NCBI RefSeq assembly: GCF_016820445.1
Contig: NZ_JADHDT010000001.1
Location: 310,001 to 374,000 of the forward strand
DNA length: 64,000 nt
Direction of reading: 5' to 3'
Source of the DNA: Sphingomonas beigongshangi
GTDB lineage: Bacteria; Pseudomonadota; Alphaproteobacteria; Sphingomonadales; Sphingomonadaceae
Below are positions 28,353-31,848 of this stretch, piece after piece. Numbering within the stretch: the first letter of the stretch is position 1; each line of letters begins with the position of its first letter. Under the pieces are notes generated by a model. That model had not been told where the DNA came from, ran no database searches, and worked only from the letters and a program-made list of their open reading frames with translations. The position numbers and the translations under genes are program-made.

Positions 28353-28505
28353 TCAATGGCGGCTTCGCACCAGCCGCGCCAGCGCCTGACCGACGTAGAG
28401 CAGGCAGAGTTCCTGATGCACCACCGCCGCGGCGGGATGGGTGGCGTGGATCGAACGCACAGCTTCCTGGCGGGAGCGTTCGAGGAGGTAGGTCGTATCG
28501 GGCAT
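28353..28505 (-). CDS. Small conserved sphingomonad-type protein (50 aa), function unknown
   Basis: This short ORF encodes a 50-residue soluble, His-containing helix-rich protein with the pattern TYLLERSRQEAVRSIHATHPAAAVVHQELCLLYVGQALARL. I recall similar small proteins, with the same opening and a HPxAAxxHQEL core, as widespread in sphingomonads, so I treat it as real. GGGAG lies 8 bases before ATG 28505; another in-frame ATG at 28511 is too close to it. Function unknown. It is divergent from the radical SAM gene with about 110 bases between them, so the LexA box there could affect both. Confidence 0.75.
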   Translation of the reverse strand: MPDTTYLLERSRQEAVRSIHATHPAAAVVHQELCLLYVGQALARLVRSRH

Positions 28506-28609
28506 GGGCATACTCCCTTTCGTCCCCTGCCCCGCCCTTATCCACCCGCCACCTTGCACCAGGATGACTGGCGGCGCGGCGAATGCGTCCCTTGCGACAT
28601 GCGTCCCGA

Positions 28610-28624
28610 GAACGTAAATGGAAC
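28610..28624. promoter_or_regulatory. LexA-box match (GAAC-N7-GAAC) at the start of the radical SAM gene
   Basis: GAAC at 28610-28613 and GAAC at 28621-28624 are separated by exactly 7 bases, giving the alphaproteobacterial LexA operator GTTC-N7-GTTC read on the other strand. It lies at the start of the radical SAM gene and overlaps its first possible ATG (28618), so binding would block transcription of the radical SAM-hemerythrin-UdgX genes. The match is perfect to the 8 fixed bases; function is inferred. Confidence 0.65.
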
Positions 28625-29874
28625 ACATGGCGCAGCTCGATACCCGCGAGAAGCTGGCGATCCTGGCGGACGCGGCGAAATACGATGCCTCCTGTGCATC
28701 GTCCGGCACCGCCAAGCGCGACAGCCGCGACGGCAAGGGGATCGGCTCGACCGAGGGCATGGGCATCTGCCACGCCTATGCGCCCGACGGTCGCTGCATC
28801 AGCCTGCTCAAGATCCTGCTGACCAACAGCTGCATCTTCGACTGCCATTATTGCATCAACCGCAAGTCGTCGAACGTGCGCCGCGCGCGCTTCACGGCGC
28901 AGGAGGTCGTGAACCTCACGCTGTCCTTCTACCGGCGCAACTATATCGAGGGGCTCTTCCTGTCCTCGGGGATCATCCGGTCGTCCGACTATACGATGGA
29001 GCAGCTGGTCGAAGTAGCGCGCAGCCTGCGCGAGGACCATCAGTTCCGCGGCTACATCCACCTCAAGACGATCCCGGACGCGGATCCCGAACTGGTGCAT
29101 CAGGCGGGTCTCTATGCCGATCGCGTGTCGATCAACGTCGAGCTGCCCACCGCGGGCGGGCTGAAGCGGCTGGCGCCCGAAAAGGACGGCGCACGGATCG
29201 AGGGCGCGATGCGCGACGTGAAGGGCGCGATCCTGGATTCGGGCGACGCGCGCAAGAAGTACAAGTCCGCGCCCCGCTTCGCCCCCGCCGGCCAGTCGAC
29301 CCAGATGATCGTCGGCGCGGATGCGGCGACCGATGGCGACATCGTCACGCGCGCTTCGTCGCTGTACGATCGGTTCGGCCTGCGCCGCGTCTATTATTCC
29401 GCGTTCAGCCCGATACCCGACGCCAGCGCCGTGTTGCCGCTGCAGCGCCCGCCGCTGATGCGCGAGCATCGCTTGTACCAGTCCGACTGGCTGATGCGCT
29501 TCTACGATTATGCGCCGCACGAGGTCGTAGCGGCGGCGGACGAGGGCACGGGCATGCTGCCGCTCGACATCGATCCGAAGCTGGCCTGGGCGCTCAAGTT
29601 CCGCGACCGCTTTCCGGTCGACGTCAACCGAAGCCCGCGCGAGATGCTGCTGCGCGTACCGGGGCTCGGCGTGAAGGCGGTCGACCGCATTCTCGCCAGC
29701 CGCCGCTGGCGGCGACTGCGTCTGGACGACGTCGCGCGGCTGACGGTGTCGGTGGCGAAGGTCCGTCCGTTCATCATCGCCGAGGATTGGCGCCCGGTGA
29801 TCCTCGCCGACCGGGCGGACCTGCGCCCGATGGTCGCGCCGAAGCGCGAGCAGCTGGAACTGTTCGCCGCCTGA
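28618..29874 (+). CDS. Radical SAM protein, putative DNA modification/repair (partner of UdgX)
   Basis: This 418-residue protein belongs to the radical SAM family that occurs next to UdgX-type proteins. The [4Fe-4S]/SAM motif is C72-x3-C76-x2-C79 (CIFDCHYC). A helix-hairpin-helix, VPGLGVKAVDRILASR, near residue 345 suggests DNA binding, with a C-terminal extension to LELFAA. Conserved starts include LAILADAAKYDASCASSGT. The reaction is unknown. ATG 28618 lies inside the LexA box; ATG 28627 may be the true start. Together with the hemerythrin gene (85 bases downstream) and UdgX it forms a rightward cassette. Confidence 0.9.
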   Translation: MEHMAQLDTREKLAILADAAKYDASCASSGTAKRDSRDGKGIGSTEGMGICHAYAPDGRCISLLKILLTNSCIFDCHYCINRKSSNVRRARFTAQEVVNLTLSFYRRNYIEGLFLSSGIIRSSDYTMEQLVEVARSLREDHQFRGYIHLKTIPDADPELVHQAGLYADRVSINVELPTAGGLKRLAPEKDGARIEGAMRDVKGAILDSGDARKKYKSAPRFAPAGQSTQMIVGADAATDGDIVTRASSLYDRFGLRRVYYSAFSPIPDASAVLPLQRPPLMREHRLYQSDWLMRFYDYAPHEVVAAADEGTGMLPLDIDPKLAWALKFRDRFPVDVNRSPREMLLRVPGLGVKAVDRILASRRWRRLRLDDVARLTVSVAKVRPFIIAEDWRPVILADRADLRPMVAPKREQLELFAA

Positions 29875-29922
29875 CCGGGCGCGCCGCGCCGGGTGAGAGT
29901 GATTCGCGGGTGAAACAGCTGG

Positions 29923-29943
29923 GCGGCTCGCCGGTTGAGCCGC
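29923..29943 (+). repeat. 7-bp hairpin between radical SAM and hemerythrin genes
   Basis: GCGGCTC (29923-29929) and GAGCCGC (29937-29943) pair around a 7-base loop, directly before the GAAGGAG ribosome binding site of the hemerythrin gene. It may attenuate transcription or modulate translation between the first and second gene of the cassette. The rest of the 85-base spacer shows nothing recognisable. Confidence 0.4.
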
Positions 29944-29959
29944 GCGAAGGAGACACACG

Positions 29960-30445
29960 ATGGCGACCGCCCAGATCTACGCCGACCTCAAGCGCGACCA
30001 CGACAAGCAGCGTGAGATGCTCAAGCAGCTCGGCGAACTGAAGGGCGACACGGCCAAGCGCCAGAAGCTGTTCGAGGCCTTTCGCCTGGAACTGCAGAGC
30101 CATGCCGCCGCCGAGGAGGAATCGCTGTACGCCGAGATGCTGGGCAAGCCCGACCTGCGCGACGACGCCCGCCACTCGGTCGCCGAGCACAAGGAGGTCG
30201 ACGATTTGCTGGGCGAGATGGCGGACCTCGATTTCGGGTCGGACGAGTGGGAATCGAAGTTCTTCCACATGCGCCACCGCTACGAACATCATATCGACGA
30301 GGAAGAGGAAGAGATGTTCCCGGCCGCCGAGAAGGGGCTCGACGACGCGACGGAGGAGCGGCTCGCCGACGTCTATGAGGAGCGCAAGCCCGAGGAGTTG
30401 AAGCTCGCCAAGGCGAATCCGCCGGGCGGCGACGACCGCGACTGA
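29960..30445 (+). CDS. Hemerythrin-like HHE-domain protein
   Basis: This 161-residue acidic four-helix protein carries the spaced His/Glu residues expected of a di-iron HHE cation-binding domain: LKRDHDKQ, LQSHAAAEEESLY, SVAEHKEVDD and MRHRYEHHIDEEEEEMFP. Such domains bind O2, NO or sense iron/redox; catalysis is not established. A short Glu-rich patch (EEEEEMFP) sits near residue 118, and a charged tail follows. GAAGGAG precedes the ATG well. It lies 85 bases after the radical SAM gene and 5 bases before UdgX, so it appears to be co-expressed with the repair genes. A role in iron-sulfur or redox protection of its neighbours is only a guess. Confidence 0.9.
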   Translation: MATAQIYADLKRDHDKQREMLKQLGELKGDTAKRQKLFEAFRLELQSHAAAEEESLYAEMLGKPDLRDDARHSVAEHKEVDDLLGEMADLDFGSDEWESKFFHMRHRYEHHIDEEEEEMFPAAEKGLDDATEERLADVYEERKPEELKLAKANPPGGDDRD

Positions 30446-30450
30446 TCGCC

Positions 30451-31848
30451 TTGCGGATCGTCACGCTTCCCGCCCCCGACGATTTCGAGGCATGGCGCGA
30501 CGCCGCGCGCGCGCTGGCCGCGGCGGAGGTGGCCCCCGATGACGTGGTCTGGCAGGTCGGCGACACGCCCGCCGATCTGTTCGCCGTCGCCGCGGGCGGG
30601 CAAGCGGCGGCTAAGACCGCGCCAGGCGCGACATTCTCCGTCCCGCGCGGCTTCGTCGATCTCGCCCGCAGCGTCGTCCTCGCCGACGATCCCGAGCGGT
30701 TCGCGCTGCTCTATGCCCTGCTGGTGCGGCTGCGGCGCCAATCGGGGATTCTCGCCGATCAGGCGGACCCGCTGGTGCGCCGGCTGGAGGGCCTGGCCAA
30801 GGCGGTCCGCCGCGACATTCACAAGATGCGCGCCTTCCTCCGCTTCCGCGAGGTGGCGACGGACGAGGACGACAGCCGCTATGTCGCCTGGTTCGAGCCG
30901 GACCATCATATCGTCCGCGCGAACGCGGCCTTCTTCGTCAACCGCTTCGCGTCGATGCGCTGGTCGATCCTGACGCCGGAGGTCTCGTTGCACTGGGACG
31001 GCAAGGCGCTGAGCGAGGGCCCCGGCGCGAGCCGCGCGGATGCGCCGGAGGGCGATCCGGTCGAGGAGGTGTGGAAGACCTATTATGCCAGCATCTTCAA
31101 CCCCGCCCGCCTGAAGGTGGGCGCGATGCTGAAGGAGATGCCGCGCAAATACTGGAAAAACATGCCGGAAACCGCGTTGGTCGGCGAACTGATCGCAGGC
31201 GCGCAAGCGAGGGAGAGCGGCATGATCGAACAGGCGCGCGCCGTGTCGGGCGACAACAGCGTGGCGGCGTGGCAGGCGCTGCGCGAAGAGGCGATGGGCT
31301 GCACGCGGTGCCCGCTCTACAAGCCGGCGACGCAGACGGTGTTCGGCGAAGGCCCGGTCGACGCGGCGATGATGGTCGTCGGCGAGCAGCCGGGCGACCA
31401 GGAGGATCTGGCGGGGCGGCCGTTCGTCGGCCCGGCTGGCCAGGTGTTCGATCGTGCGATCGCCGCGGCGGAGATCGATCGCGCGCGCCTCTACGTCACC
31501 AATGCGGTCAAGCATTTCAAATACGAGCAACGCGGCAAGCGGCGCATCCATGCCAAGCCGGGGACGGGCGAGATCGAGGCATGCCGGTGGTGGATCGAGC
31601 AGGAAAGGCTGCTCGTACGGCCGCAGATGACGGTGGCGCTGGGCGCGACCGCCGCGCGGTCGCTGCTGGGACGGACGGTCACGATCTCGCGCGAGCGTGG
31701 GCGGACGATCGCGCTGCCTGATGGCGGCGCGGCATGGATCACGGTCCATCCCAGCTATCTGCTCCGCCTGCCAGACCCGGCGCAGAAGGAAGACGAGTTC
31801 GCGCGGTTCGTCGAGGATCTGCGCGGCGCGAAGGCGGCGCTGGGCTGA
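30451..31848 (+). CDS. UdgX-type uracil-DNA binding protein fused to an N-terminal DUF4130 domain
   Basis: This 465-residue two-domain protein has an N-terminal DUF4130/TIGR03915-type domain (about residues 60-180, including VRRDIHKMRAFLRFREV and WFEPDHHIVRANAAFFVNRF) and a C-terminal UDG-superfamily domain (about 280-465). The latter has GEQPGDQED (from residue 311), the UdgX-specific loop KRRIH (363-367) whose His367 would attach covalently to the abasic site after uracil excision, and HPSYLLRLPD. Cys residues in MGCTRCPLY and ACRWW fit the [4Fe-4S] cluster. The start is TTG at 30451, 5 bases after the hemerythrin stop. UdgX forms suicidal DNA adducts that are resolved by recombination. Confidence 0.93.
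   Translation: MRIVTLPAPDDFEAWRDAARALAAAEVAPDDVVWQVGDTPADLFAVAAGGQAAAKTAPGATFSVPRGFVDLARSVVLADDPERFALLYALLVRLRRQSGILADQADPLVRRLEGLAKAVRRDIHKMRAFLRFREVATDEDDSRYVAWFEPDHHIVRANAAFFVNRFASMRWSILTPEVSLHWDGKALSEGPGASRADAPEGDPVEEVWKTYYASIFNPARLKVGAMLKEMPRKYWKNMPETALVGELIAGAQARESGMIEQARAVSGDNSVAAWQALREEAMGCTRCPLYKPATQTVFGEGPVDAAMMVVGEQPGDQEDLAGRPFVGPAGQVFDRAIAAAEIDRARLYVTNAVKHFKYEQRGKRRIHAKPGTGEIEACRWWIEQERLLVRPQMTVALGATAARSLLGRTVTISRERGRTIALPDGGAAWITVHPSYLLRLPDPAQKEDEFARFVEDLRGAKAALG

Follow-up and report, generated by a model that had tools for sequence, protein, structure and literature searches.

An exact LexA-type operator before the radical SAM-UdgX genes of Sphingomonas beigongshangi and a hemerythrin gene with a putative stress promoter between them

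The closest described system to the locus presented here is COG1573-COG4277, a two-gene repair operon based on uracil-DNA glycosylase (UDG), for which SOS regulation has been predicted in Bacteroidetes, with earlier reports from Verrucomicrobia and Alphaproteobacteria; the paper cites da Rocha 2008 and Erill 2016 for this operon (PMC8565304). The present locus lies in a 64-kb stretch of the genome of Sphingomonas beigongshangi (64,000 nucleotides, hereafter the window) and comprises a LexA-type operator followed by a radical SAM gene, a hemerythrin gene and a gene for a DUF4130-UdgX fusion. It shares the two-gene content and the predicted SOS control of the published operon, from which it differs in that a hemerythrin gene with its own extracytoplasmic function (ECF)-type motif lies inside, and in that the operator overlaps a probably leaderless promoter. 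The SOS-controlled radical SAM-UdgX core is thus not new, because it is already predicted in PMC8565304; a preliminary description of this DNA had rightly treated the pairing of the two genes as known, and the SOS control of the pair is equally a matter of record there. What is new is the putative internal stress promoter, together with the proposed shifts of UdgX between regulons, whereas the conserved core is mostly known. No further paper joining UdgX with a radical SAM protein or with LexA was found in the open-licence library searched.

The reading that accounts best for the locus, to which we assign a probability of roughly 55%, is that of a repair pair under LexA control that would have gained a second promoter with a general-stress hemerythrin gene. 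The element described in this analysis is probably an overlap of operator and promoter on a leaderless mRNA, and its conservation is the subject of the following section.

The operator and promoter of the radical SAM gene

28592..28597, + strand: putative -35 TTGCGA (relatives' consensus TTGACA), at -18..-13 relative to the box
28610..28624, + strand: LexA-type operator GAAC-N7-GAAC (GTTC-N7-GTTC on the - strand), exact GAACGTAAATGGAAC, present at 110/110 relatives' loci and in the window
28615..28620, + strand: putative -10 TAAATG (relatives TATAtn), within the operator spacer and 17 bases 3' of the -35
28627..29874, + strand: radical SAM protein, TIGR03916 (COG4277 type), CxxxCxxC at residues 72-79 counted from 28618

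The 110 loci used for comparison consist of 30 family loci and 80 Sphingomonas loci. Of the 149 genomes covered by a profile search of the family, 100 have the radical SAM protein above cut-off, and the best 30 of these were made into loci. A scan of genome contigs confirmed at least 587 relatives, of which the best 80, nearly all titled Sphingomonas, were retained. Two loci from assemblies titled Bacillus sp. 2B10 (L071) and Arthrobacter sp. TPD3018 (L077) group among Sphingomonas in the tree, and these assemblies are probably mislabelled or contaminated. Across the class Alphaproteobacteria, the radical SAM protein was matched in 17 of 190 genomes, ten of them above cut-off, including three in the own family.

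The number of boxes was dropped as evidence, since GAACGTAAATGGAAC is the sole exact GAAC-N7-GAAC within the window and chance alone gives one exact match per 64 kb (1 observed against 1.15 expected from shuffles; for boxes with one mismatch, 32 against 33). The significance of the box rests instead on its position and conservation. An exact GAAC-N7-GAAC is located immediately 5' of the radical SAM start in 111/111 loci (110 relatives and the window), confirming the alphaproteobacterial LexA-type operator that the preliminary description had proposed, and among the 106 unique sequences of the upstream 30 bases the flanking positions mostly drift while the box stays exact. Outside the family, the box is found upstream in all eight alphaproteobacterial homologues of at least 65 bits (L133, L134, L136-L141), seven of which score above cut-off and one of which is a truncated gene (65.6 bits), and it is absent from the available DNA at six weak radical SAM matches (18-25 bits, L142-L147). 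At one alphaproteobacterial locus (L141) the radical SAM gene is apparently mostly missing, and the box and a UdgX-like gene are still there.

The bases surrounding the operator suggest how it would act. Across the 106 unique sequences, the -35 positions show T at a frequency of 0.92, T 0.50, G 0.92, A 0.48, C 0.68 and A 0.50, and positions 2-3 of the operator spacer are T and A in every case, followed by T (0.68) and A (0.79). The resulting TTGACA-N17-TATA spacing therefore points to a sigma-70-type promoter whose -10 lies inside the operator. The distance from the box to the first ATG or GTG in any frame is 2 nt in 102/111 loci, 3 nt in six, and 0, 6 and 13 nt in one each, for which reason 28627 (MAQLD...) is most likely the true start. 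Transcription would begin at or next to the A of this ATG; the mRNA is therefore probably leaderless, and LexA would block at its -10. The preliminary description had the box overlapping the first ATG of the gene, and an ATG at 28618 does lie in the box, but this codon is apparently spurious and was dropped as a start, being absent from most relatives, which retain the second ATG. With operator, -10 and start codon overlapping, the locus would show clearly how a LexA operator can sit on a promoter that is probably leaderless. A small open reading frame (ORF) of about 50 aa (MPDTTYLLERSRQEAV...) is found at window positions 28353-28505 on the - strand, nested in a longer ORF and divergent from the radical SAM gene.

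The radical SAM protein scores 567.5 bits against TIGR03916 (cut-off 343.5), which we take to be the COG4277 protein; its cysteine motif is CIFDCHYC at residue 72, and it has no match among solved structures. The preliminary description had recognised all three gene products correctly, and the hemerythrin and UdgX proteins, too, exceed the cut-offs of their families, as detailed below.

The hemerythrin gene and its putative promoter

29911..29936, + strand: putative ECF-sigma promoter (sequence motif), -35 TGAAAC (29911-29916), 16-base spacer, -10 GGTT (29933-29936)
29960..30445, + strand: hemerythrin HHE protein, PF01814, with conserved candidate di-iron ligands

The hemerythrin scores 65.7 bits against PF01814 (cut-off 25.3), and its candidate ligands H14, H48, E52, H72/H77, H110/H111 and E115 are kept in 72/72 homologues; from this conservation we infer which of them would bind iron. 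The own genome, 3.6 Mb in 24 contigs, has two other hemerythrin-domain genes that score above the Pfam cut-off and one slightly below it. Among solved structures there is one weak match, 6q09, at 29.8 bits, and the single NCBIfam match is to the PA2171 family at 55 bits, far below its cut-off of 190. Ribosome binding of the PA2171 type, known from a persister protein (PMC13041383), was dropped for this hemerythrin on account of this weak match.

For EcfG, the sigma factor of the general stress response, the consensus in Sphingopyxis is GGAAC-N16-CGTT, in which AAC hardly varies and the -10 may also be GGTT or CATT, among others (PMC7083833); the EcfG promoter of S. melonis Fr1 is given as GGAAC-N17-20-GTT (PMC6599016). 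The motif before the hemerythrin gene resembles those of this regulon in the AAC core of its -35, its 16-base spacer, its GGTT-type -10 and its distance to the start, so that an AAC core, a 16-17 base spacer and a CGTT-like -10 are all found in GAAAC-N16-GGTT (29912-29936). The ATG follows 23 nt past the GGTT, with a Shine-Dalgarno-like gaaggag between. In the own genome, furthermore, GGAAC-N16-GGTT is present between phyR and nepR.

The motif recurs widely. For hemerythrin genes at the radical SAM locus, 32 of 40 upstream regions contain the broad pattern G[GCA]AAC-N16/17-[CGT][GA]TT, where shuffles give a mean of 0.53 and at most 4. From the wider family, the best 29 hemerythrin relatives were made into loci (30 with the own genome), six of them beside the radical SAM gene and 23 elsewhere. 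The six carry the broad pattern without exception and the strict form, G[GC]AAC-N16/17-[CGT][GA]TT, in two cases; among the 23 elsewhere, where the -35 is mostly GGAAC, the strict form was found in 19 (shuffle mean 0.17; misses L164, L165, L167, L172). The 120 nt before each hemerythrin start examined contain no LexA box. As to genome-wide counts, TGAAAC-N15/17-CGTT was rejected as an abundant class, having 7 occurrences in the own genome where the control has 5, and a longer motif with at most two mismatches occurs 12 times against 8; these counts therefore lend no support to a large regulon. Taken at the level of motifs, the hemerythrin gene probably has an ECF-type promoter, with EcfG as its probable reader. 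No report linking EcfG with a hemerythrin, including at Sphingomonas promoters, was found in the open-licence library searched.

Gene order, UdgX and the weighing of readings

30451..31848, + strand: DUF4130/TIGR03915-UdgX fusion, TTG start 5 nt past the hemerythrin stop
31549..31551, + strand: codon of H367 in KRRIH, the histidine numbered from the TTG at 30451

The third protein scores 226.8 bits against TIGR03915 (cut-off 112.25) and 314.7 bits against TIGR03914 (cut-off 189.95). Its KRRIH loop with H367, present as previously described, aligns at 182 bits with the KRRIH of the solved UdgX 6ail, presumably from Mycobacterium smegmatis, and H367 is taken here to be the residue that forms the covalent adduct of UdgX. 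The loop is shared with 6ail and its relatives, whereas the N-terminal TIGR03915/DUF4130 fusion is a feature of the window protein.

In 39 of the 80 Sphingomonas loci the hemerythrin gene is downstream of the radical SAM gene, in three it directly precedes UdgX away from the radical SAM gene, and for 38 the genome has no match. UdgX is also found downstream in 36 of the 39 (several kb of other DNA intervening in L105 and L106); two of the remaining three are at contig ends, and L101 has no UdgX within 4 kb. S. melonis, represented by strain AS2.3 (L033), is one of the species with the three-gene order. In the other 41 loci, UdgX directly follows the radical SAM gene in 24, is separated from it by other DNA in seven, and is missing from the available flank in ten, among which are the three with hemerythrin before a distant UdgX. 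No hemerythrin was matched at E 1e-10 in 27/27 and 11/11 Sphingomonas genomes, more distant hemerythrins (E above 1e-10) not being excluded; the 11-genome search found its positive controls in 9/9 cases with one match each, and the 27-genome search had none. Some hemerythrin match is present in 108 of the 149 genomes of the wider family, many of these matches being weak. Among the matches listed, a comparison of coordinates places the hemerythrin gene next to the radical SAM gene in eight of the 100 family genomes with an above-cut-off radical SAM protein (the own genome, G000, and G091, G021, G044, G055, G077, G124, G145). A quick tree of 72 hemerythrins, with several long, unsure branches, requires six changes in the location of the gene. 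Because of these counts and the changes on the trees, the three-gene arrangement appears to be old or recurrent, and often lost. Both the box and the gene order recur in relatives; a lack of such conservation, which the preliminary description had named as refuting its hypothesis, is therefore not observed.

The upstream regions of UdgX vary with this arrangement. No LexA box is found within 120 nt of the UdgX starts (24 direct, 7 with other inserts, 24 behind hemerythrin and 14 from another set). A LexA box serving displaced UdgX genes was rejected, as none is present in the 400 nt upstream at any of the 15 loci, out of 17, for which this much DNA is available; the 15 include four joined to the radical SAM gene, three behind hemerythrin, and L199, whose start is unsure. 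An EcfG-like site, defined as G[GC]AAC-N16/17-[CGT]GT or CATT within 75 nt, occurs at 5/7 split UdgX genes and 4/7 with other inserts (9/14 together), at 1/23 unique direct ones and at 0/24 behind hemerythrin.

In the reading favoured here, LexA bound to GAAC-N7-GAAC would cover the -10 and reach the start point of the leaderless promoter, blocking it until RecA triggers LexA cleavage. Upon derepression, the radical SAM and DUF4130-UdgX proteins would be made together, with LexA alone governing the radical SAM gene. UdgX would remove uracil and remain covalently bound through H367, trapping uracil or abasic sites. Judging from its family, the radical SAM enzyme may act on the damaged base or the adduct, repairing or modifying bases, and the proteins may cooperate. 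The hemerythrin gene would have originated in the general stress response and carry an ECF-type promoter of its own, for which EcfG is the most likely sigma factor. Its product is probably an independent stress protein that deals with O2, peroxide, NO or iron, functions that have been reported for other bacterial hemerythrins. Since UdgX follows the hemerythrin gene by 5 nt, two transcripts could include it, one that starts at the LexA promoter and also covers the radical SAM gene, and one that starts at the ECF promoter and otherwise holds the hemerythrin gene alone. UdgX would thus receive an SOS input by read-through and a stress input from the hemerythrin promoter, and often, where rearranged, would depend on a promoter of its own.

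More tentative, and somewhat short of an even chance, is the extension of this reading to sphingomonads in general, by which UdgX would shift its regulon through rearrangement: under SOS control behind the radical SAM gene, under SOS and general stress control behind hemerythrin, and, once freed, without LexA control and with an EcfG-type promoter of its own. A suicidal uracil-DNA cross-linker would then join the general stress response and act without its radical SAM partner. We know of no agreed physiological role for UdgX; its production under general stress, without DNA damage or the radical SAM partner, would narrow this role and point to non-growing, oxidatively stressed cells. The joined, hemerythrin-inserted and split arrangements in close species would further provide a natural test set for the change of regulon of a repair gene.

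Several results weigh against this picture. With respect to the hemerythrin promoter, the -35 of the window is GAAAC where the EcfG regulon of sphingomonads (PMC7083833, PMC6599016) has GGAAC or GCAAC, which leaves EcfG itself uncertain and makes another ECF sigma factor possible; the strict G[GC]AAC form is found in 0/40 upstream regions at the radical SAM locus; the broad pattern is missed in 8/40 (L050, L089, L092, L093, L095, L097, L105, L110); the full motif occurs just once in the own genome; GGAAC-N16/17-CGTT is not in excess there (29 against 46 for the control); and the main text of neither paper names hemerythrin. With respect to UdgX, the Fisher value of 1.35e-4 for decoupled against direct genes ignores kinship, and the -10 pattern was relaxed after a first look at the UdgX sequences. 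The pattern fixed beforehand gives 1/7 for split genes, 5/7 for other inserts, 1/23 for direct genes and 0/24 behind hemerythrin. Lastly, of the 36 UdgX genes that follow hemerythrin, 12 were omitted because the match did not fix their start.

Three other explanations have to be considered. The gap between the radical SAM gene and UdgX may be an insertion hot spot that tolerates inserts, the hemerythrin gene being a passenger without meaning for repair. The seven loci with other DNA in this gap (0.27-1.4 kb, in some cases with long ORFs that run the other way) are as expected from a hot spot, and so are the at least nine changes of the hemerythrin label on a FastTree of 117 radical SAM proteins, four of which are forced by supported branches, 41 of the 114 forks being weak. 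A passenger would not be expected, however, to stay linked to UdgX at sites away from the radical SAM gene, as it does in three genomes (L051, L059, L073, with the hemerythrin gene adjoining UdgX upstream), nor to keep the same orientation in 39/39 loci and lie no more than 0.32 kb downstream of the radical SAM gene in 38/39 (L106 being 2.8 kb off). Where missing at the locus, moreover, the hemerythrin gene was not found elsewhere save in these three genomes. We consider this explanation unlikely, if the best of the three.

Less probable again is the proposal of the preliminary description, namely a dedicated SOS operon of three genes with the LexA promoter only, in which the two Fe-S proteins would receive protection or iron from the hemerythrin. 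The conserved LexA box, the 5-nt gap between hemerythrin and UdgX and the recurrence of the order in several genera fit such an operon, as does the outcome in the 47 Sphingomonas genomes searched whole, where the hemerythrin gene is found only at the radical SAM gene (6 genomes, all among the 39, with one match each) or beside UdgX (3, again one match each) and is unfound in 38. Nonetheless, the hemerythrin gene carries its own ECF-type motif and no LexA box within 120 nt, and its relatives examined in the wider family are mostly located elsewhere, with putative EcfG-type promoters. A constant role in an SOS unit was rejected in view of the 38/80 genomes without a match, and the part assigned to the hemerythrin was accordingly not borne out.

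Finally, that the TGAAAC-N16-SGTT block is some other conserved element, such as a regulator site or an RNA feature, and no promoter, would suit its uniqueness in the own genome and the conserved TCGCnnn to its left in many loci, but is the least probable of the three, given that its place and spacing resemble the GGAAC-N16/17-CGTT-like sites before relatives elsewhere and that its -10 lies 23 nt from the ATG with the gaaggag between.

Other LexA-type boxes in the own genome

Exact GAAC-N7-GAAC occurs at 82 sites in the own genome, against 31 for the reversed control pattern. The neighbourhoods of 20 of the 82 were inspected, a non-random choice made by eye and mostly A/T-rich. Measured from the end of the box to the start codon, uvrA lies 7 nt away (to its ATG), radA 21 nt and a PA0069-type radical SAM gene 24 nt; boxes also precede an ImuA-like gene by 34 nt (63 bits, cut-off 150) and an RmuC-like gene by 85 nt (180 bits, cut-off 810), and at pdeM the box lies just within the predicted ORF. 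An ORF at L116, considered as a further imuA, was dropped because no family was matched, and the remaining sites among the 20 are found at unrelated genes or at none recognised.

Two SIR2-like genes have a box 31 and 43 nt before their starts (L121, G000:C4:28000-32000, and L127, G000:C21:324900-328900, respectively). The first contains SIR2_2 and STALD domains with a below-cut-off match to the Dsr2 N-terminus, and the second SIR2_2; both are candidate anti-phage genes, possibly under LexA. A 15-mer identical to GAACGTAAATGGAAC and, 24 bp away, a second box, GAACCGGAACAGAAC, lie between the gene for ribosomal protein S2 and a divergent 108-aa ORF with no family match (L111, G000:C19:146400-150400). 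A box is also located upstream of a gene for a LexA-like protein with HTH and S24-peptidase domains (L117, G000:C23:181500-185500).

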